Position numbers and translations under genes: made by a program. A stretch of DNA of 64,000 nucleotides from Flaviaesturariibacter aridisoli. Its GTDB lineage: Bacteria > Bacteroidota > Bacteroidia > Chitinophagales > Chitinophagaceae. Every line of letters begins with the position of its first letter. The stretch's first letter is position 1. Below are positions 34,268 through 52,801 of the stretch, in pieces. The stretch spans positions 1-64,000 of the forward strand of contig NZ_SKFH01000023.1 of NCBI RefSeq assembly GCF_004343705.1, given 5' to 3'. Below the pieces are notes generated by a model. That model saw only the letters and a program-made list of their open reading frames with translations, was not told the origin of the DNA and searched no databases.

Positions 34268-34753
34268 TCAACCAATAAAGGTCTCCAGCGATTCCAGAAG
34301 ACCGTCCGACGCAAAGGGCCGGATGCGGGCGCTGCCCCGCAGCTTGCCCTGCAGAAAATCTTCAATCCGCGCGCGCAACTCCTCGCTGCTTTCCGCCATA
34401 TGCAGGTAGCCCTGCTGCACAAAAGCCCGGGCCGTGGCCACCTGGTGGTCATCGCGGGTTTCGTGGTGACGGGCGAGGCGCGGAAATACGATGAGCGGCT
34501 TCTCAAGCTCCAGTACATTCAGGATAGTGCCGATGCCGGCATGGCAAACCACGAGATCAGCATCGAGAAGGTGCTGGCGGAAGGCCGCGGGCGGTATGAA
34601 CAAAAGCGTTTCGATGTGGCGCGCTTCGAAGGGATGACCGGGCGTTGTTTGTGCCGTGAAGCGCAACGCGGGAAAATGGAGCGCCAACTCATCAACGATA
34701 GTAAGCAGGCGTGCAAACGGCTCCTGCGAGCCGATGGTAACAAATACATTCAT
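34268..34753 (-). CDS. Alg13/EpsF-like glycosyltransferase catalytic subunit (GT28 C-terminal type), first pair
   Basis: 161 residues, similar to the donor-binding half of GT28 enzymes. It starts MNVFVTIGSQEPFARLL and carries LDADLVVCHAGIGTILNVLELEKPLIVFPR, the UDP-sugar pocket. As in eukaryotic Alg13 and bacterial PssE/CpsG, it needs an Alg14-like partner to bind the membrane. ATG 34753 overlaps the preceding gene as ATGA, so the pair is translated together. Confidence 0.9.
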   Translation of the reverse strand: MNVFVTIGSQEPFARLLTIVDELALHFPALRFTAQTTPGHPFEARHIETLLFIPPAAFRQHLLDADLVVCHAGIGTILNVLELEKPLIVFPRLARHHETRDDHQVATARAFVQQGYLHMAESSEELRARIEDFLQGKLRGSARIRPFASDGLLESLETFIG

Positions 34754-35211
34754 AGTACGGATCCTTGGTAGATGACGCGGCCGCCGGCCAGGTGCGGCCA
34801 TTGGGTATAGACGCGGTCGCAGAATTTGAGGGCAATGCGTCCGCTGAGCGAGATCTTTTCGGCGTGGCAGATGCTCTCGATCCAGATGGTACGCGCACCG
34901 AGCAGCTTGCCGGCCAGCAGGCCCAGCACACCGGGAGCGGCGCCGGTAGAGATCACCACCTGCGGGCGGCTGCGCCGCAGCACTTTGGCTATCCGTAAAA
35001 ATACGGGCAGCACTTTCAGCTTATTCCAGCGGCTCACCTCCGGCACCAGTTGAAAAGGATAGCCTTTCACGGTGGCCGCAAAGCCTTCGTTGGTGGAGCA
35101 ATACACTACGTCGTGGCGTTCGAGCAGGGGCCGCAGGCGCACCAGCTCGATCCAATGACCACCGCCGGAGGCGATGGCTACAATGCGTTGTTTTTTTGCC
35201 GTCGGGTTCAT
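34750..35211 (-). CDS. Alg14/PssD-like membrane subunit of a two-part glycosyltransferase, first pair
   Basis: 153 residues. It has IVAIASGGGHWIEL (Gly-rich phosphate loop), VVISTGAAPGVLGLLAGKLLGARTIWIESICHAEKISLSG and VYTQWPHL, the conserved Alg14 pattern, with the hydrophobic segment anchoring it at the cytoplasmic face. Its start overlaps the upstream glycosyltransferase stop (ATGA) and its stop overlaps the Alg13-like start. Confidence 0.9.
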   Translation of the reverse strand: MNPTAKKQRIVAIASGGGHWIELVRLRPLLERHDVVYCSTNEGFAATVKGYPFQLVPEVSRWNKLKVLPVFLRIAKVLRRSRPQVVISTGAAPGVLGLLAGKLLGARTIWIESICHAEKISLSGRIALKFCDRVYTQWPHLAGGRVIYQGSVL

Positions 35212-41697: not shown

Positions 41698-42243
41698 TTA
41701 GCTGGCATCGGTATAACGGTAATACGGATAAATGCGCGGCATGGCTTCCTCCTGGAGTTGCGGTTTCTGCTGGGGCATATCGGCGATGAGCACATAGCCG
41801 AGTGAGGACAGCGAGCTGCTCACTGTATGTTGCATCCGGGCTACTTTGTAGTCGCTTGCGGGCTCATCCACGAGCACCGGCTCACGGCGAACCGCGGTGC
41901 GGGACGTGCGTACATTTTGGTGGCTGGCGAGGAAGGTCTTGATCAGGGAAATTTCATCGTCGCGGATGACGGCCGGCTGGTTGAGCCAGTGGAGCAGGCC
42001 GATGACGCCGCTCATGTGGCGCACCAGTTCTTTCTGCTCGTCCTGGAGGCGCACGAATACCAGCCCGGGAAACAGGGGCTCGAGTTCGGTCTTTTTCAGG
42101 AAGCTCCAGGGCGATTGCGTCATGCGTAACGGGAGGTAGGTTTCAAAGCGTTTTTTTGTCAGGGCGGCGGCAACTTTTTTCTCGCACTTCGGACGGGTGC
42201 ACAGGGCGTACCATTGCCCTCCTTGGGGTAAAAAGGTGTTCAT
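41698..42243 (-). CDS. UpxY-type NusG-like transcription antiterminator
   Basis: 181 residues. The NusG N-terminal domain is clear: QWYALCTRPKCEKKVAAALTKKRFETYLPL and ELEPLFPGLVFVRL. No KOW domain pattern is obvious in the tail (SLGYVLIADMPQQ). In Bacteroides, UpxY proteins prevent premature termination within their own capsule operon. It is third in the operon, after wza and wzc, rather than first. ATG 42243 matches the family start; ATG 42267 would add eight residues. Confidence 0.9.
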   Translation of the reverse strand: MNTFLPQGGQWYALCTRPKCEKKVAAALTKKRFETYLPLRMTQSPWSFLKKTELEPLFPGLVFVRLQDEQKELVRHMSGVIGLLHWLNQPAVIRDDEISLIKTFLASHQNVRTSRTAVRREPVLVDEPASDYKVARMQHTVSSSLSSLGYVLIADMPQQKPQLQEEAMPRIYPYYRYTDAS

Positions 42244-42331
42244 TTCAAAGGTTTTATAGGTTAGCATCAACCCGGAAAGGCCGGGAAATCAAAACGAGCT
42301 TGGTGCTCTCAGGTGGTGTGGTTGGTGTTGG

Positions 42332-44703: not shown

Positions 44704-45480
44704 TTACCGGGTCAACCGGTCCAGTATGATTGTTACAAAGGACAGGCCACTTAAAATAATTGGTAAAAGTTGTCGCGTATTCGTCGCGGCGCCCACACGG
44801 GCTTTATTGGGCTCTGCATAAAGAACATCCCCGTTATGTAAGTAGAAATACGGAGAGCTCAGCAGTTCTTTTGAGTTTAGATCAATACGGGTGAGCATTT
44901 TCTGCCCCCCCTCATCACGGATCAGCAGCAGGTTATCGCGGCGTCCGTAAATAGTTAGGTCACCGGCAGCACCGAGTGCTTCGAGGATAGAAATTTTTTC
45001 GCTAGGCACCGGAACCACCTGTGGATGTTCGACTTCACCGAGTACCGTCACTCGAAAATTGAGGAAGCGGATGGACACAACGGGCTCGAGTAGCAGTTTT
45101 CGTTCCAAGAGCTGGTTGCGGATTTGGTCGGTAAGGTCCCTTTTGGTAAGCATTCCCGCTTTGATCTTCCCCAGCATCGGGAACTGAATATTGCCCTCCG
45201 GGTCTACGAGGTACCCGGTTACCTCTATGGCGTTCGTACCATTAAGGGCAGTTGAGGAGTTATTGTTGAAAATCGTTGTGGCTTCCGGGTTGGGACTGCT
45301 AACCTGTATGGCCAGAATATCGCCCGGATGAATGAGTTGCTGATCGGGCGCCGGGCTGGCAACAATTAGGTCTTTGGGTACATCTACGAAATAGGCCGTC
45401 TTACGGGTATTGACACAGGATGTTGCTGTAAGGAACAGCAGCCCCATCAGGAGCAGGAATAGTTGGTTGCTGATGCGCAT
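44704..45480 (-). CDS. polysaccharide export lipoprotein (Wza-like)
   Basis: 258 residues. Lipobox LFLTATSC, then the poly_export domain (IHPGDILAIQVSSPN through VDPEGNIQFPMLGKI), a SLBB domain (RVTVLGEVEHPQVVPVPSEKISILEALGAAGDL) and a C-terminal hydrophobic segment (LLPIILSGLSFVTIIL). It forms the outer-membrane exit channel. It is the first gene of the operon and overlaps no upstream gene. Eleven bases separate it from wzc. Confidence 0.93.
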   Translation of the reverse strand: MRISNQLFLLLMGLLFLTATSCVNTRKTAYFVDVPKDLIVASPAPDQQLIHPGDILAIQVSSPNPEATTIFNNNSSTALNGTNAIEVTGYLVDPEGNIQFPMLGKIKAGMLTKRDLTDQIRNQLLERKLLLEPVVSIRFLNFRVTVLGEVEHPQVVPVPSEKISILEALGAAGDLTIYGRRDNLLLIRDEGGQKMLTRIDLNSKELLSSPYFYLHNGDVLYAEPNKARVGAATNTRQLLPIILSGLSFVTIILDRLTR

Positions 45481-45576: not shown

Positions 45577-45580
45577 CACC

Positions 45581-45665
45581 GGAGAGATGGCAGAGCGGTC
45601 GATTGCGGCGGTCTTGAAAACCGTTGTCTGTAACAGGACCGGGGGTTCGAATCCCTCTCTCTCCG
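45581..45665 (+). tRNA. tRNA-Ser (anticodon TGA)
   Basis: 85 bases with a long variable arm. The acceptor stem is GGAGAGA/TCTCTCC, the anticodon loop CTTGAAA (anticodon TGA) on stem CGGT/ACCG, and the T arm has GGTTCGAATC. No CCA is encoded. Confidence 0.95.
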
Positions 45666-45670
45666 CCCTT

Positions 45671-45781: not shown

Positions 45782-46381
45782 TTACTTGCTTTCCTTCAGC
45801 ACCATATCGATCGTGATGGCGGTCGCTACGATGTTCATCTTGTTGCGGTCTTCGGCATATTCGGGCGCGATACTCACATTGTATTTATCTGCCGACGTAA
45901 AGAATTCCTTTGCCAGCCCCGCCCACTTCTTGCTGATGGTGCCGATGGCGGCGCCCGACGTATCGGTAATGCGGAAGTTCCAGGCCTTCCAGTCGCCGCT
46001 GATCTCGGAGATCATTTGGCCCGACGTATCGAAAATGTGGAAGCGCGGTTTGAGGATGCTGAATTTCTGTTTAATAAAACCGATATCCGACCCATTGCCA
46101 TCGCGGATGGCGATCTTTGACAGCCAGAAGGTCCAGCCGCGGTGAATGCTGGCTACAACCTGATCGTTAGTATCAGTAATGGCCAGTTGAAAGGGCATCA
46201 TTTTCTTGTTCAGGATCAGCCGCAGGAACTTGTGGAAGCCCGGCACGTGCTGGCGAACAGTACCAATGGGAAAGCCATTCTCGTCATACACCTTGTACTC
46301 GTTGTGAAACTTCAGAAACTGTACCTTCTCATCTATAAAATATTCGTTGGTGGAGAAGAACGGGGGAAAAAACAGACTCAT
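45782..46381 (-). CDS. LURP-one/phospholipid-scramblase-like protein
   Basis: 199 residues. The sequence repeats short strands of the form K/F-x-I-x-D-x-x-G with intervening turns (YKVYDENGFPIGTVRQ, PFQLAITDTNDQVVASIHR, KIAIRDGNGSDIGFIKQK, PRFHIFDTSGQMISEISG, NFRITDTSGAAIGTISKK), the LURP-one-related/Scramblase barrel pattern with a hydrophobic last strand. The bacterial role is unknown. It sits between two tRNA-Ser genes with duplicated flanks. Confidence 0.75.
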   Translation of the reverse strand: MSLFFPPFFSTNEYFIDEKVQFLKFHNEYKVYDENGFPIGTVRQHVPGFHKFLRLILNKKMMPFQLAITDTNDQVVASIHRGWTFWLSKIAIRDGNGSDIGFIKQKFSILKPRFHIFDTSGQMISEISGDWKAWNFRITDTSGAAIGTISKKWAGLAKEFFTSADKYNVSIAPEYAEDRNKMNIVATAITIDMVLKESK

Positions 46382-46487
46382 AGCGGTGGTTTGTGCCAAA
46401 GATAAAAGCAATGGCGCACATCAGCGGACCTGAGAAAAGCCGGACTCCGTCCGTCGGAACCCGCGCCATCTGCAGCCGGGTACAAAA

Positions 46488-46524: not shown

Positions 46525-46529
46525 GGTGG

Positions 46530-46616
46530 CGGAGAGGGGCGGATTCGAACCCCCGATACAGTTGCCCGTATTCCAGTTTTCGAGACTGGCCCATTCAACC
46601 ACTCTGGCACCTCTCC
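46530..46616 (-). tRNA. tRNA-Ser (anticodon CGA)
   Basis: 87 bases with a long variable arm. The acceptor stem is GGAGAGG/CCTCTCC, anticodon loop CTCGAAA (anticodon CGA) on stem CCAGT/ACTGG, and the T arm contains GGTTCGAATC. Confidence 0.95.
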
Positions 46617-46663: not shown

Positions 46664-47163
46664 TTTTTGCAGCAATTATTTTCCTTCCCGAGTTGCCGGC
46701 GGGGCTTGAACGATCGACGGGTGCCAGCGTCGAAAATAATCCGGCCAATCGGCTTCCCGCGGAAATTGTTGATTTTCGGCAACGAACCTGCTTTATCCGC
46801 TTCGATGTTCCACCGCAGGCCCTTTGTCCTGGAAGAGGCAGCCTTCCCTCCCGGTTCACTACGTATTATTTTCGAGTGGCCAACTGTGTCAGGATCAACC
46901 GTTAAGTTGGCCTCCAGCACAGCTCGGTGAGCAAAGCTTTTTCTTTTTGGCACAGAGAATGTTGTCATTCAAGGGTGGCCGTTATGGTTGGAAAACGAGC
47001 GGTCACAAGGCTTTCCTCATTCCACCTATCGTTCCTTCCCCCTTTCAATAAGTACGTTCTCCTGGTCAGCGTTCAGGCCAGCCGGGAAAGGCAGTGGCAT
47101 GCCTCCCGCTTCGGTTTTGTTCCTGACACATATACCGTTTGCTAACCTAACAAAACTTCCGAC
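46664..47163. other. 500-base region without a gene, with a stem-loop
   Basis: No open frame here looks like a protein. It includes an 8-base stem GGCCAACT/AGTTGGCC (46878-46885, 46905-46912) with a 19-base loop, then a T-rich stretch at 46938-46948 that may terminate a short transcript. The region has lower GC than its surroundings. It may be a long 5' leader of the SQD1-fusion gene. I see no known riboswitch. Confidence 0.4.
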
Positions 47164-49629
47164 ATGAATAACACTATTCTCGTGCTTGGCGGAGACGGCT
47201 ATTACGGATGGCCCATCTCGCTGAAGCTTGCCGTTGCCCATCCCGGTACAAAGATCCTGATCGCCGATAATGAATGGCGGCGCAATACCGTACGCAGGGT
47301 CGGCTCCGACAGCCTGATACCGATTGCAACAGCAGCCAGACGCATTGCCGCCTTTCGCGAATTATATGGCCAGGACAACCTGCACTACCTGAAGATCGAT
47401 ATCAACTCCGAGGCGCTCGAGGACCTGATCCGTGAAGAGCAGCCACATACCATTTACCACATGGCCCAGCAATGCTCCGCTCCCTATTCTATGCTGGGCC
47501 TGGCCGAATCCATTTACACGATCAACAACAACGAAGGCAATAATATGCGACTGCTCTGGGCAGTGCGCAAACACGTTCCCGACGCCCACATCATCAAGAT
47601 GGGCTCTATGGGTGAATACGCCACCAATGGCGGAATCGATATTGCCGAGGGGTATTTCAATCCGGAATTCAACGGCCGCAAAGCGGTCAATCCACTGCCG
47701 TTTCCCCGCCAGTCGGATGACGTCTACCACATTTCGAAGATCAACGACAGCAATTACATTTCCATGGCCTGCCGGAAATGGGGCCTGCGCATCACCGAAG
47801 TGATGCAGTCGACGCTTTTCGGCGTTTATACCGAGGAAATGCAGGATTGTGCCGACCTCTACACGAGGTTCGATTACGACGATATCTTCGGCACGGTGGT
47901 GAACCGCTTCCTGACCCAGGCGCTCACCGGTCACCCGCTAACTGTATACGGCAAAGGCAATCAAACCACGGGGATCATGCCTATGAAAGATGCCGTTCAC
48001 TCGCTGGAGCTCATCGCCGGCACGGTGCCCGCCAAGGGGGTGCACAAAGTGGTGAACCACGTAACGAAAGCCAACTGCACCATCAATGAACTGGCCGAAG
48101 GCGTCAAGCAACTGGCCGAGTCGCTCGGATTTGCAGTAACCATCAACCACGTGTTTGACCCGCGCAGCGAGGCCAATTGTGTGAAGCACGACATCCGCGT
48201 GATCACAGAACATATCGACAATCATCTCACGGCCTCCACGGTTGAAGATGTGCTGCGGGAAACCTTTGGCATTATTGCCCGCCACCAGGAGCGCGTCGAT
48301 ACCGCCGCTTTCACCCACCACATCCACGCCTTCCAGGGCCTGTATGCAGCACAACCAGCCACTGAAGAAGAAACTGCTGACCTGGTTACGAACGAAGAGA
48401 ACTGGCGCGCCTTCCGTCAAAACAATTTTCCCGGCGACCCGATCAACCTCAACCCCGGCACGCTCGGCAGCGTTTCCGCCGCGGTAGGAAAAGTACGCCA
48501 CAGCGCCGCCTTCGAGCAGGTTGTCCGCAGCCCGCTTGGACTTTACGAGTACGGCCGCACCAACCTGATGGCTGTGCGCGCACTGGCCCGGCAGATCTGG
48601 CCCTCAAAGGGATACCAGCTGGCTGTAACGAACGGCACTTCGCAAACGATAAACCTGCTGGCGCTGGCGCTCCTGCGTGCTTTCGGCAAAACCAAGTCAG
48701 GCAGGATCCGGGTGGTCACCACGCGGCACGAGCACCCCGGCGGCATCGGTGTATTCGAGCAGCTGCCGGAGTTCGAGGTTTATTACCTGGATGATGAAGT
48801 GATGCAGGATGAAGACCACTTCCGTTCGGCCATCAGTTGCCTGAAGCCCCAGGTCTCGCTCCTCTCCCATGTATTTTACGCCAGCGGCAACACGGCTCCG
48901 TATTCCTACTGGAGCTCCGTTATCCGCGAGGAAGCGCCTGACTGTAAGCAGATCCTTGACGTCTCGCAATCCATCGGCCTTTATGAATTGCCCTTCGGTT
49001 CCGCCGACATCCTCCTGGGCAGCCTGCACAAATGGGTCTTCGGACCGCATGGCAGCGGCCTGACCTGGCTCAAAGACGATCTGCGCGACTGGATCGGCGG
49101 ACTTTTCTGGAACGGCATCGACGGGAATGCTGACCCGGCTACGGCACGCCTCAACCAGCAAGGCGGCCAGGATTTTCTCCAGTATGCAGAGATACTCGAA
49201 TCGCTTCGTCTCTACCACAAAACCGGCTCCGAACTGGTTTGGAAGCGATCTGCTTACCTCTCCGCGCAACTACGGGAGCTCCTGGAAGACGTGCTCACCA
49301 GGTACGGGATACAGCATACGATCGTGACCAGGAATGCGGATGCACCAATGTTGTCCATCGGCTTCGAGGATTTCCGTCCGTACGATTTGTACTGCGAATT
49401 GAATGCAAAAGGTATCCATTGCAAATGCATCATGAACTACAAGAAAGACGGGAAGGAGTACCATATCCTTCGCTTCGGCCTGCCGTATTACGAAACAACC
49501 GACCGGCTTCGCTATGCAGCACAGGTTTTTGAATCACTGCTGAAAGAGCAGCAAAAGGTGGTGCGTATGGCGGTTACCGAGCCGGCAGATCAGGCAAAGA
49601 AGGAAGATTCCATTTCGGCAGTAGCCTGA
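47164..49629 (+). CDS. bifunctional SQD1-like NAD-dependent sugar-nucleotide enzyme fused to a class V PLP enzyme
   Basis: 821 residues. Residues 1-380 match the UDP-sulfoquinovose synthase (SQD1/Agl3) branch of the extended SDR family: LVLGGDGYYGWP (NAD loop), IIKMGSMGEYAT, the catalytic Y188-H-I-S-K192, FDYDDIFGTVVNRFL and HPLTVYGKGNQT. Residues 410-800 are a fold-type I class V PLP enzyme (cysteine desulfurase/isopenicillin epimerase type): NLNPGTLG, TNGTSQT (phosphate), RHEHPGG, D599 in LDVSQSIG, and PLP Lys K623 in LGSLHKWVFGPHGSG. An Alg14/Alg13-like pair follows. A sulfur- or amine-modified UDP-sugar is the likely product, but the chemistry is not known. Confidence 0.85.
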   Translation: MNNTILVLGGDGYYGWPISLKLAVAHPGTKILIADNEWRRNTVRRVGSDSLIPIATAARRIAAFRELYGQDNLHYLKIDINSEALEDLIREEQPHTIYHMAQQCSAPYSMLGLAESIYTINNNEGNNMRLLWAVRKHVPDAHIIKMGSMGEYATNGGIDIAEGYFNPEFNGRKAVNPLPFPRQSDDVYHISKINDSNYISMACRKWGLRITEVMQSTLFGVYTEEMQDCADLYTRFDYDDIFGTVVNRFLTQALTGHPLTVYGKGNQTTGIMPMKDAVHSLELIAGTVPAKGVHKVVNHVTKANCTINELAEGVKQLAESLGFAVTINHVFDPRSEANCVKHDIRVITEHIDNHLTASTVEDVLRETFGIIARHQERVDTAAFTHHIHAFQGLYAAQPATEEETADLVTNEENWRAFRQNNFPGDPINLNPGTLGSVSAAVGKVRHSAAFEQVVRSPLGLYEYGRTNLMAVRALARQIWPSKGYQLAVTNGTSQTINLLALALLRAFGKTKSGRIRVVTTRHEHPGGIGVFEQLPEFEVYYLDDEVMQDEDHFRSAISCLKPQVSLLSHVFYASGNTAPYSYWSSVIREEAPDCKQILDVSQSIGLYELPFGSADILLGSLHKWVFGPHGSGLTWLKDDLRDWIGGLFWNGIDGNADPATARLNQQGGQDFLQYAEILESLRLYHKTGSELVWKRSAYLSAQLRELLEDVLTRYGIQHTIVTRNADAPMLSIGFEDFRPYDLYCELNAKGIHCKCIMNYKKDGKEYHILRFGLPYYETTDRLRYAAQVFESLLKEQQKVVRMAVTEPADQAKKEDSISAVA

Positions 49630-49675
49630 CGCGGTGCGGCAAAGCATCCATTTAATAACAACGAAAAAAGAATCC

Positions 49676-50119
49676 ATGAAAGTACTGTGTGTTGCCTCCG
49701 GTGGCGGCCATGTGGTGGAACTGTTGCGGTTGCAGCCCGCTTTTGAAGAACACGAGCTCATCTATATGTCGACCCTGGACAGCTATGCCAACGCCTTTAA
49801 GGGGTATGCGTACCATACGATTCCCGATTTCAGTCAGTGGAACGTGTATAAGATACCGAAAGCGTCATTCGTGCTGTTCCGGCTGTTCACGCGCATCCGG
49901 CCCGATGTAGTGGTCACCACCGGCGCGGCGCCGGGCGTGCTGGCCTTGTTCATCGGGTGGCTGCTAGGCGCGAAGACGATCTGGGTTGAAGCCTCCTGCC
50001 ACACGGAAAAGATATCCGTCAGCGGCAAGATCTGCGCCTTCTTCGCCAGCCGTGTGTACACGCAGTGGCAACACCTCGCAACAAACAAATTCGTTTACTC
50101 CGGAAATGTGATCAAATGA
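49676..50119 (+). CDS. Alg14/PssD-like membrane subunit, second pair
   Basis: 147 residues, the same family as 34750-35211: VLCVASGGGHVVELL, VVVTTGAAPGVLALFIGWLLGAKTIWVEASCHTEKISVSG, VYTQWQHL. It overlaps the following Alg13-like gene as ATGA and lies 46 bases after the SQD1-fusion gene, so it is probably in the same operon. Confidence 0.9.
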   Translation: MKVLCVASGGGHVVELLRLQPAFEEHELIYMSTLDSYANAFKGYAYHTIPDFSQWNVYKIPKASFVLFRLFTRIRPDVVVTTGAAPGVLALFIGWLLGAKTIWVEASCHTEKISVSGKICAFFASRVYTQWQHLATNKFVYSGNVIK

Positions 50120-50625
50120 TATTCGTAACCGTAGGCAGCCAGCTGCCGTTCGACCGCTTTATCCAGGCCTTTGATGAACTGGCTCCCGAGCTGCCCGCAA
50201 GCCAGGAGGTTATCGCCCAGGTATTTGACATGAAATACGAGCCAAAACATATAAAAACGCTCGAATACATCAACCCGGGCAATTTCAAGGAGTATATATC
50301 AAATGCCGACCTCGTCGTAAGCCACGCAGGCACCGGGACGATCATCTCGGTATCGCAACTGAATAAACCGCTGATCGTGTTTCCCCGGCTCGGCGAGCTT
50401 CGCGAAACCCGCAACAATCACCAGGTAGACACCTGCCTGATGCTCGAAAAAACCTGTGGTCTGCAGGTAGCCTATAACGCGGCACAGTTGAAAGAGAAGA
50501 TCTTCGACTTCCTGTGCGGACGGCTACCGGTAATGGAACAAATACCAGCCCATGCCTCCCCCGAGTTGCTGCATTCGTTGCGAAGCTTTATCAATACGGG
50601 GAAAAACCTGGCGGTAGGTCACTAA
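50116..50625 (+). CDS. Alg13-like catalytic subunit, second pair
   Basis: 169 residues: MIFVTVGSQLPFDRFIQAFDELAPEL at the start and NADLVVSHAGTGTIISVSQLNKPLIVFPR as the donor site. The fusion protein upstream may provide its nucleotide sugar. ATG 50116 overlaps the previous stop. Confidence 0.9.
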   Translation: MIFVTVGSQLPFDRFIQAFDELAPELPASQEVIAQVFDMKYEPKHIKTLEYINPGNFKEYISNADLVVSHAGTGTIISVSQLNKPLIVFPRLGELRETRNNHQVDTCLMLEKTCGLQVAYNAAQLKEKIFDFLCGRLPVMEQIPAHASPELLHSLRSFINTGKNLAVGH

Positions 50626-50689
50626 GTGTTCCCGCACGGGATCGCGACCAGAACGGCAAGTGATGGGAATGCTGTCAATGCAACGGCGG

Positions 50690-52801
50690 CTACTCCCCTT
50701 CGCTTTCCTTCTCGCGTACCAGCACCAGGTTATTCAGGTCTACCTGCATCGGCAGCAACCCGATCCGCACTACGGCGCGCTTGCCGCGTAGTTCCAGCAC
50801 CTCACCGATCTGGAGGTTCTTTTTCATCTTCACTTTGTCACCCACGCGTATCTCACCGGCCAACTCCTCGTACCTGGCGTTGAGCTGCTTTTGCTTTTTA
50901 CTCACCACCTTCTGCTCGTTATTTTGCTTGAACAGCAGGGCCGCCATTTCCTTGAACACCTGGTTCTTGTCTTCGGCCTTCCGCCAGTCGAGGGTGATCT
51001 GGCGTAGCTTACGCTCCATATCCTTCAGGTAGGCAATCCGCTCCTCGGAAACACGGTTCTGCTCCTTAAGCACTTCCACCTGCTGGCGGTGCCGCTCGCG
51101 GTCCATCACCTGCTCCATCTCGCGCTTCAGGCGCTCGTTTTCTTTTAACAACTTTTGCAGGTCGCGCTGCTTTTGCTCGACCACCTGCAGGTCCTGCTCG
51201 GTGCGGTTCAGCAGCTTATCGAGCTTGAAATGCTCGTTGTCCACGAGGCTGCGCGCCCGGTCGATGAGGCGCCGGTCGAGGCCGATGCGCTCCGCGATCG
51301 AAAAAGTATACGAAGAGCCCGGCTTGCCGATGTTGAGGCGATACAGCGGCATCAGCTTCTTTTCATCGAAGGCCATTGCACCATTGAGGATGCCCTTCGT
51401 TTTGTTGGCCATCACCTTCAGGTTCAGGTAGTGCGTCGTTACGATGCCGACGGCGTGCTTGCGGGCGAGCTCCTCCAGGATCACCTCGGCGAAAGCGCCT
51501 CCCAGGTTGGGGTCGGAGCCGGAGCCCAGTTCGTCGATAAAGAAAAGCGTGCGCCCGTTGGCCACTTCCATGAACGACTTCATGTGCAGCAGGTGACTGC
51601 TATAGGTACTGAGCTCGAACTCGATGCTTTGCGTGTCGCCGATATGAATGAGCAGCTGCTTGAAGATGCCAAAGGTGCTCGACGGATGCACAGGCACCAG
51701 CAGGCCGCTTTGCACCATCAGCTGCAGCAGGCCCACCGTCTTCATGGTAACGGTCTTGCCGCCCGCGTTGGGCCCGGAGATCACCAGGATGCGGCGGTCT
51801 TCCCCAAGCTGCAGGTCCATGGGAATGGTCGACTTGCCGGAGCGCTCATTGTATAACAGCAACAACGGGTGCCGCGCGTTCACCAGGTTGATGTGCGCCT
51901 TTTCCTGGACTACCGGGTATTCGGCGTGCAGGGCGATGGCCAGCTGCGCCTTGGCGTAAATAAAATCGTACTCACCGGCCACGGCATGATAGGTGGTCAG
52001 CAGCGGGGCATAGATCGAAAGGTCTTTGGTCAGTTGCTTCAGGATGCGGTACACTTCCTTGCGTTCGTCGCTTTCAAGCTCGTACACCTGGTTGTTCAGC
52101 TCCACGGTCTCATCGGGCTCGATGAAGGCGGTGCGTCGGCTGTCGCTCTCCCCGTGCAGGATGCCACCGACGGTGCGCTTCTGCTCGGCCAGCACGGCGA
52201 TTACGCGGCGGCCGTTCATGAAGCTTTCCTCGATATCGGCCAGGTAGCCGTTCTTATTGAGCTTGCTCACGATTCGGTCGAACACACGGCGCAGCTCCTG
52301 GCGCTTGCGGTAGAGGCTCATGCGGATCTGCGCCAGCTCGGGCGAGGCATTGTCCTTTACGCTGCCCGTTTCATCGATGACGTCGTTGATGAGTGCCTGG
52401 ATCGCTTTCTCGTAATAAGTGCCGTCGATAACGGTGGCAAGCCCCGGGTAGGCGGTGCGGCGTTCCGTGTCGAACCAACGAAAGAGGCGCTCCATTGTTT
52501 CGGCAAGCTTTCGGATTCCCACCAGTTCCTCGCCCCCGAGCATAGAACCCGGGATGGCCAGCAGGCGCAGCTCGCGGCGCAGGTTAAGCACATAGTCGTT
52601 GGGAAAATGAATCGCGTTTTGCGTGATCTGCTTGAATTCGTGCGACTGCAGCAGCTCGCGCTCAATGAGCTCCCTATTGGTGTGTATCTGGAGGTCATGG
52701 GCTTTCTCGCGGGCATATTCCGTCCGGCAGCGCTCGTGCAGGAGGCTGCGGATCTTGTCGAATTCCAATTGAACCGGGGCGGATTCCGGGTATAATTTCA
52801 T
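50690..52801 (-). CDS. mutS2: MutS2-like DNA mismatch/recombination ATPase without an Smr domain
   Basis: 703 residues. It has the MutS2 N-terminus (LEFDKIRSLLHERCRTEYAREKA), the ATPase core with VISGPNAGGKTVTMKTVGLLQ (Walker A), FFIDELGSGSDPNLGGAFAEVIL (Walker B and signature) and THYLNLK, then a coiled-coil clamp (EQDLQVVEQKQRDLQKLLKENERLKREMEQ) and a C-terminal KOW-like beta segment. The family is usually about 780-800 residues with a C-terminal Smr nuclease domain, which is absent. A TACCTTTG -7 box is at 52831-52838. Confidence 0.92.
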   Translation of the reverse strand: MKLYPESAPVQLEFDKIRSLLHERCRTEYAREKAHDLQIHTNRELIERELLQSHEFKQITQNAIHFPNDYVLNLRRELRLLAIPGSMLGGEELVGIRKLAETMERLFRWFDTERRTAYPGLATVIDGTYYEKAIQALINDVIDETGSVKDNASPELAQIRMSLYRKRQELRRVFDRIVSKLNKNGYLADIEESFMNGRRVIAVLAEQKRTVGGILHGESDSRRTAFIEPDETVELNNQVYELESDERKEVYRILKQLTKDLSIYAPLLTTYHAVAGEYDFIYAKAQLAIALHAEYPVVQEKAHINLVNARHPLLLLYNERSGKSTIPMDLQLGEDRRILVISGPNAGGKTVTMKTVGLLQLMVQSGLLVPVHPSSTFGIFKQLLIHIGDTQSIEFELSTYSSHLLHMKSFMEVANGRTLFFIDELGSGSDPNLGGAFAEVILEELARKHAVGIVTTHYLNLKVMANKTKGILNGAMAFDEKKLMPLYRLNIGKPGSSYTFSIAERIGLDRRLIDRARSLVDNEHFKLDKLLNRTEQDLQVVEQKQRDLQKLLKENERLKREMEQVMDRERHRQQVEVLKEQNRVSEERIAYLKDMERKLRQITLDWRKAEDKNQVFKEMAALLFKQNNEQKVVSKKQKQLNARYEELAGEIRVGDKVKMKKNLQIGEVLELRGKRAVVRIGLLPMQVDLNNLVLVREKESEGE

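Follow-up and report, generated by a model that had tools for sequence, protein, structure and literature searches.

According to the available portions of two reports, the nucleophile of the UDP (uridine diphosphate)-sulfoquinovose synthases SQD1 and Agl3 is sulfite, and without sulfite these enzymes give the 5,6-ene (PMC4388408; PMC8987622). Replacement of His95, Arg101, Met145, Tyr182 or Lys186 by Ala abolishes the activity of Agl3, the T144A variant is active, and S180A is impaired; Arg101 is the Arg of AEQRSAP, as taken from the primer table of that paper (PMC4388408, in the part available). Among class V pyridoxal 5'-phosphate (PLP) enzymes, C-DES is described, in the accessible part of its report, as having no catalytic Cys and as releasing sulfide, ammonia, and pyruvate (PMC8300815), and EgtE, in a source likewise available in part, cleaves a cysteine sulfoxide, and a thioether less well (PMC4493562). 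A gene that joins relatives of both enzyme types in one reading frame was identified in 64,000 nucleotides of Flaviaesturariibacter aridisoli DNA (contig NZ_SKFH01000023.1, positions 1 to 64,000; this whole stretch is the window referred to below). Judged by sequence, its product is best classed as a SQD1-like relative in a new architecture and not as a UDP-sulfoquinovose synthase. The simplest reading, which we hold to be somewhat better than an even bet, is that it would place cysteine-derived sulfur, in whatever oxidation state, on C6 of a sugar. The preliminary description of this DNA knew of no described system of this form, and none for such a SQD1/PLP fusion was found among the papers listed in literature searches, judging by titles and the openings of abstracts.

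The fusion gene is a single open frame of 821 amino acids (47164-49629, plus strand) in the open-frame list of the window. The landmarks named in the preliminary description, GGDGYYGWP (residues 9-17), YHISK (188-192), Asp D599, and the PLP Lys K623, all lie where it had placed them. The SQD1-like half, a short-chain dehydrogenase/reductase (SDR) of residues 4-381 (47173-48306, plus strand), matches Arabidopsis SQD1 in the PDB (1i24, E 2.1e-72) and aligns with it throughout at 36% identity. A linker delimited from the row alignment (about residues 382-413; 48307-48402, plus strand) leads to the class V PLP half (about residues 414-790; 48403-49533, plus strand), delimited by Pfam, PDB profile, and alignments, where Pfam Aminotran_5 covers residues 477-780 with 49.2 bits against a cut-off of 21.5; the assignment of both halves proposed at the outset was thus borne out. 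Linker length differs among the fusions, and the motif FTHHIHAF opens the linker in the four closest rows. At E 0.001 the only Pfam matches of the whole protein are Aminotran_5, Epimerase, and GDP_Man_Dehyd, with no DegT/DnrJ/EryC1 or other sugar aminotransferase family among them. The NCBIfam model of UDP-sulfoquinovose synthase, NF041015, gives 328-330 bits, well below its equivalog cut-off of 575, and because this score and Arg101 of the active site are two family features that the protein does not have, it is not classed as such a synthase. Other fusions are 51-82% identical in the SQD1 half (11 rows); for the PLP half the figure is 40-53% (12 rows). The fusion is genuine, neither chance nor an assembly error, because further genomes have both halves in one frame. 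An AlphaFold2 model built from a two-row alignment (mean predicted local distance difference test score 35, predicted template modelling score 0.26) was set aside.

In a tree of 25 SQD1-type rows, the 12 fusion rows, from 11 genomes (that of G654 was excluded since its start is interrupted), form one branch with support 100/100 among the SQD1-like rows, so that by this tree the fusion arose once. The outgroup consists of two rows only, RfbB and GalE, both on long branches outside the SQD1-like rows, and the nearest unfused rows are that of genome G513 and two haloarchaeal plasmid genes (98/96). Placement of the first half in a different SDR group, which would have spoken against the sulfur idea of the preliminary description, did not occur. 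The half has the GGDGYxGW motif for bound nicotinamide adenine dinucleotide (NAD) and the [ST]-YxxxK signature of extended SDR enzymes, and in the window row the aligned residues are S148 (Thr145 of SQD1), E151, Y152, Y188, and K192. Columns were counted, with Arabidopsis SQD1 numbering, in the 12 fusion rows and in 9 unfused SQD1-like rows out of the 11 that the tree contains. His96, Tyr149, Tyr182, His183, Lys186, Gln261, and Arg327 are unchanged in 12/12 fusion rows, and Thr145 is Ser in all of them. Position 148 holds Glu in ten and Gln in two (Glu in 4/9 unfused rows), and position 146 Met in five and Phe in seven (Met in 6/9 unfused rows). Three positions differ more sharply: Ser180 is Asp in 12/12 fusion rows (D186 in the window) and Ser in 9/9 unfused rows; Arg263 is Thr in 12/12 (T269) and Arg or Lys in 9/9; and Arg101 is Cys in 10/12 (C104) and Pro in 2/12, against Arg in 6/9 unfused rows. 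The comparison of pocket residues that had been proposed, made here by alignment, thus finds all three positions changed in every fusion row, with two cationic positions lost and one acidic position gained. Judged from the alignment, the dehydratase core is retained, and several active-site positions are altered toward less positive charge.

The PLP half is nearest, weakly, to enzymes acting on cysteine derivatives, as its profile and model matches suggest. A ten-row profile of it matched, in the PDB, the periplasmic PLP enzyme PvdN best (E 3e-12), then the cyanobacterial C-S lyase C-DES (3.5e-11), cysteine desulfurases, and Egt2. The NCBIfam models for EgtE (an enzyme presumably without a catalytic Cys) and PvdN match 10/10 members and SufS 9/10; their best E-values lie between 1e-13 and 1e-9. 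Aligned with E. coli SufS and CsdA, Lys623, Asp599, Gln602, and His524 are fixed in 13/13 rows, and Arg770 and Lys754 in all 12 rows that reach those positions; loss of the PLP residues in close relatives, the other outcome that would have counted against the sulfur idea, was therefore not seen. The SufS Arg aligned with R770 is one that we take to bind the alpha-carboxylate, and the kept Arg, together with known structures, suggests that the substrate of this half is an alpha-amino acid and not a sugar. CsdA, which is annotated as a cysteine sulfinate desulfinase, and SufS share the His, Asp, Gln, Lys, and Arg with the PLP half, but identity to them is 15%, Lys754 stands in place of the Arg of their loop, and the desulfurase Cys loop (RxGHHCA / RTGHHCA or SSGSACTS) is absent from the alignment. 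C-DES (PMC8300815, as available) is likewise without that loop; unlike C-DES and EgtE/Egt2, which share with it a PLP family match at weak scores, the fusion has a SQD1-like half and its own motifs, NLNPGTLG and HEHxGGIG, which are nearly fixed, and GGQDF, which is fixed. Persulfide transfer through C755 was rejected as a general mechanism because this residue, which lies outside the Cys-loop position, is Leu in genome G636. PvdN differs in that the PLP half forms the C-terminal part of a fusion and has no signal of its own. A paralogue in the same genome (L005, the one class V row of that genome used for comparison) shares an HKW motif with the PLP half and looks, by eye, as if exported by the twin-arginine translocation pathway.

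Relatives were sought in draws of genomes from the order (n=396, E 1e-40), family (n=394), class (n=395, E 1e-30), and phylum (n=395, PLP profile, E 1e-35) of the window; the draws overlap, so that their counts are not independent. A search for the same fusion elsewhere had been proposed, and the two halves were found side by side in one protein in 12 genomes from 6 genera, the window's included, 10 of them in its own family and 2 in another. The order draw gave three matching genomes, the window's own, G162, whose full-length fusion is 65% identical, and G179, with the SQD1 part only. In the family draw 11 genomes matched, of which ten have both halves and G513 has only SQD1, and in the class draw four did, the window's own, G1118 and G1085 (both halves, other family), and G1092 (SQD1 only); among 11 genomes searched of that second family, G1118 and G1085 appeared again and no others. 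The phylum draw contained no stand-alone PLP half, the window's own genome being its sole match, and no split version of the two halves was seen among the genomes with a match. A scan of contigs with PLP halves gave one relative, on a G162 contig. Genome G1085 has two fusion copies, the second of which ends near a contig end and no longer follows the profile beyond position 709 of 804; the C-terminal end of this copy (L045, contig C98, 4 kb) is unlike all others, and it adjoins a frame that by eye looks like a transposase. The G654 copy (L028, 9047-11131) may be broken or misread, because an in-frame TAG interrupts its first part. Among plasmids, the whole protein as query gave 22 records, none covering 80% of it, and the 20 of the 22 that are among the matches listed cover the SQD1 half only; the PLP half as query gave only 4 weak matches of 21-28% identity. 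A relative was encoded in 0/14 viral contigs with a pattern match. A foreign origin judged by base composition was discarded, the guanine-plus-cytosine content of 47000-50999 (0.535-0.587) lying inside the range of the surroundings (0.517-0.642), and a promoter and terminator scan stayed at chance level.

CysH is a source of sulfite, and its distribution sets most fusion genomes apart. The Pfam family PF01507 contains both CysH and CysD, which were split by match length (about 500-530 bases versus at least 660 bases); three CysH-type genes agree with NCBIfam, and the CysD-type calls are made by length alone. A CysH-type gene is present in 1/12 fusion genomes (G162) compared with 75/115 relatives, the background being a family draw of 117 minus the window genome and G162. 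CysD-type genes alone occur in 4/12 fusion genomes (G653, G654, G1118, and G1085) versus 2/115 relatives, and perhaps activated sulfate is made there for a use other than assimilation. For the CysH and the CysD-alone comparisons the Fisher p values are 1.8e-4 and 6.5e-4, ignoring kinship, and the CysH count by genus is 1/6 (binomial 0.02). These figures are to be read with the 19 match-less genomes of the family draw in mind, which may include fusion genomes and, if so, would raise the background CysH share; two of the 12 fusion genomes are less than 90% complete (76% and 82%), and the two of the other family were compared without a background of their own. The fusion-less congeners of the window genome, G047 and G165, have a CysH-type gene, and the window genome itself has a cysH remnant in which positions 2-69 of 175 are matched (G000:C6, L059, about 1300-1700). 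Of the genomes with an unfused SQD1, G513 has CysH and CysD both, and in G1092, which is 72% complete, neither was found. Cysteine dioxygenase, from which cysteine sulfinate usually comes, occurs in 0/12 fusion genomes, but this weighs little, because it is rare across the family (1/117). The window genome also has a DndC gene (G000:C3, L058, 823-2091; NCBIfam cut-off reached) beside a DndD-like frame seen by eye, which suggests DNA phosphorothioation.

Because the core dehydratase is kept, active-site positions are less suited to an anion, the PLP relatives are of the cysteine type, and the hosts mostly have no CysH-type reductase, a cysteine-derived sulfur is the reading that we prefer. A more specific form of it, tentative and with the odds against it, is a two-step enzyme that would move cysteine sulfur to C6 of a UDP-hexose as a thiol, by addition and then C-S cleavage. 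The substrate would be a UDP-hexose, probably UDP-glucose; in the SQD1-like half bound NAD+ would oxidize C4 and water would be lost, giving a 4-keto-5,6-ene, to which the cysteine thiol would add at C6 before the 4-keto group is reduced back. The PLP half would then grip the amino-acid end of the S-conjugate and cut the C-S bond, yielding UDP-6-thio-6-deoxyglucose, pyruvate, and ammonia, and a PssD/PssE-type glycosyltransferase pair, where present, would transfer the sugar for an extracellular polysaccharide. A sulfite-free UDP-6-thioglucose (or S-cysteinyl-6-deoxyglucose) synthase combining dehydratase, thiol addition, and C-S lyase is, at this level of detail, a doubtful guess at roughly one chance in four. 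All substrates, the order of steps, and the product in this scheme are inferred from sequence. If it were true, thiosugars would enter polysaccharides by a new route, in bacteria mostly lacking the sulfite-making reductase, and cysteine as nucleophile instead of sulfite would be a new way to sulfur sugars. The fusion suggests a putative self-contained route of sulfur onto sugar in some Bacteroidota, and a natural fusion of a SQD1-like enzyme with a PLP relative of C-S lyases opens a one-protein assay.

Several points weigh against this thiol version. A thiosugar nucleotide of this type is not known to us, and genome G162 has the fusion plus CysH. Every single C-S lyase is weakly similar to the PLP half; the EgtE model TIGR04343, whose cut-off is 400 bits, scores 28 bits on the window row. 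Pro takes the place of Arg101 in 3/9 unfused rows as well. One of these, the unfused SQD1-like protein of G179, has a PAPS (3'-phosphoadenosine 5'-phosphosulfate) reductase gene two genes off on the same strand (NF002537, 198 bits, cut-off 154; contig C26, L065, 10106-13865), so that loss of Arg101 perhaps need not mean loss of sulfite use. The charge argument as a whole is drawn from the Agl3 mutants and the alignment, and the portions seen of both papers name sulfite as the nucleophile of SQD1 and Agl3 (PMC4388408; PMC8987622).

The preliminary description had raised, as one appealing idea, a protein that makes its own sulfite and adds it to UDP-glucose. In such a protein the PLP half would free sulfite from cysteine sulfinate, cysteate or a similar amino acid, and the SQD1 half would make UDP-sulfoquinovose for an extracellular polysaccharide. 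The homology of the N-terminal half to SQD1 agrees with this, as does the absence of a CysH-type gene from 11/12 fusion genomes, since a private sulfite source would there make sense; the apparent private source beside the SQD1-like gene of G179 is a precedent, and the PssE-type partner described below also matches the glucuronosyltransferase WelK, an acidic-sugar enzyme (71 bits, cut-off 400). What tells against free sulfite is the sugar half itself, with S180D, R263T, and R101C/P, given that Agl3 is inactive as R101A and impaired as S180A (PMC4388408, in the part available); in addition, the nearest PLP relatives include C-S lyases instead of a desulfinase, though desulfurases of the CsdA/SufS type match too, and the lack of cysteine dioxygenase in fusion genomes adds a little. 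Sulfur taken from an amino acid survives from the original idea, indirectly, through the weak likeness to cysteine enzymes and the CysH pattern, and sulfite as the free nucleophile is not supported: we give it about one chance in four, and rank the thiol version slightly above it. In G179 another PAPS reductase gene lies elsewhere in the genome (L067, 4787-5467).

A transfer of nitrogen, which had also been proposed as amination of a keto-sugar, is improbable. Here the PLP half would supply nitrogen or act on the keto-sugar, and the product would be an amino sugar or a conjugate with an amino acid, modified at C6 or C4; the Asp that replaces Ser180 might bind an ammonium group, and the sulfur reading is itself drawn from sequence and gene patterns. 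The match is nevertheless to Aminotran_5 and to no sugar aminotransferase family, a number of its closest relatives have cysteine derivatives as substrates, and the CysH pattern would be left unexplained. Least probable, at long odds, is that the two halves are joined for co-expression only, a SQD1-like dehydratase that makes the 5,6-ene or some other sugar, and a PLP enzyme whose reaction lies elsewhere. The variable linker would fit this, as would neighbors that differ between genera and the several fusions with no glycan gene seen alongside, but the single origin, the catalytic residues kept in both halves, and the lack of split versions and stand-alone PLP halves in the searches given above argue against it.

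Two genes behind the fusion match both subunits of PssD/PssE (Cps14F/G), and the two-part Alg14/Alg13-like glycosyltransferase of the preliminary description was recovered. The PssD/Alg14-like gene (49676-50119, plus strand) begins with an ATG 46 bases after the fusion stop, a likelier start than the GTG at 49634 that opens its frame; it matches PF08660 with 40.7 bits (cut-off 27), its nearest NCBIfam model being PssD. The PssE/Alg13-like gene (50116-50625, plus strand), whose ATG overlaps the PssD stop (ATGA), matches Glyco_tran_28_C (PF04101) with 60 bits (cut-off 22), its nearest model being PssE. Unlike the described pair, both stay below the NCBIfam equivalogs, with 77 bits for NF041549 (cut-off 110) and 104 bits for NF041548 (cut-off 120). 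The search for conserved neighbors gave a divided answer: the pair stands behind the fusion in the window and in G162 (64-65% identical), and by eye a PssE-like frame follows the G481 fusion, but other genera differ. Just upstream of the fusion, in the opposite direction, lies an extracellular polysaccharide cluster with a NusG-like gene (41698-42270) and a Poly_export gene (44704-45480), both by Pfam, and, by eye, a Wzc-like gene between them and a flippase-like gene and sugar transferases farther on; in G162 the pair ends a same-strand polysaccharide cluster, again named by eye. Behind the G653 fusion come genes for a glycosyltransferase of family 2, for a polysaccharide deacetylase, and for a membrane protein that has no Pfam match, and in genus g218 a major facilitator superfamily (MFS) transporter gene adjoins it in 3/4 genomes (by Pfam in G449, by eye in G617 and G654). 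In the parts of G636, g212, and g412 that were read, no glycan gene was seen beside the fusion. The glycan link thus holds for at least some of the genera. A link to ergothioneine was set aside, EgtB and EgtD genes being near the G653 fusion only (about 4 kb away; L027, 15462-17634, NCBIfam cut-offs reached) and none seen beside the others in open frames inspected by eye.

Other observations concern these surroundings and the unfused relatives. A SQD1-like gene on a Pseudonocardia autotrophica plasmid (L047, 4995-8470) lies 1.2 kb from an SbnA/cysteine synthase-like PLP gene, of a different family from the PLP half of the fusion, and an MFS gene, and one on a Rhodococcus qingshengii plasmid (L063) lies near SulP sulfate transporter and alkyl sulfatase-type genes. 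Within the polysaccharide cluster of the window there is a second PssD/PssE-like pair (34268-35211), with 42-48% identity to the one that follows the fusion. Between tRNA-Ser genes (45580-45668, plus strand; 46527-46616, minus strand) lies a gene for a Scramblase/LURP-one-related protein (45782-46411, minus strand). In two g218 genomes an orphan membrane protein of about 490 amino acids adjoins the fusion (L029, 11799-13268; L030, 4669-6156); at the limits applied, it matched nothing in Pfam, NCBIfam or the PDB, and by eye it is possibly a polyprenyl-sugar transferase.

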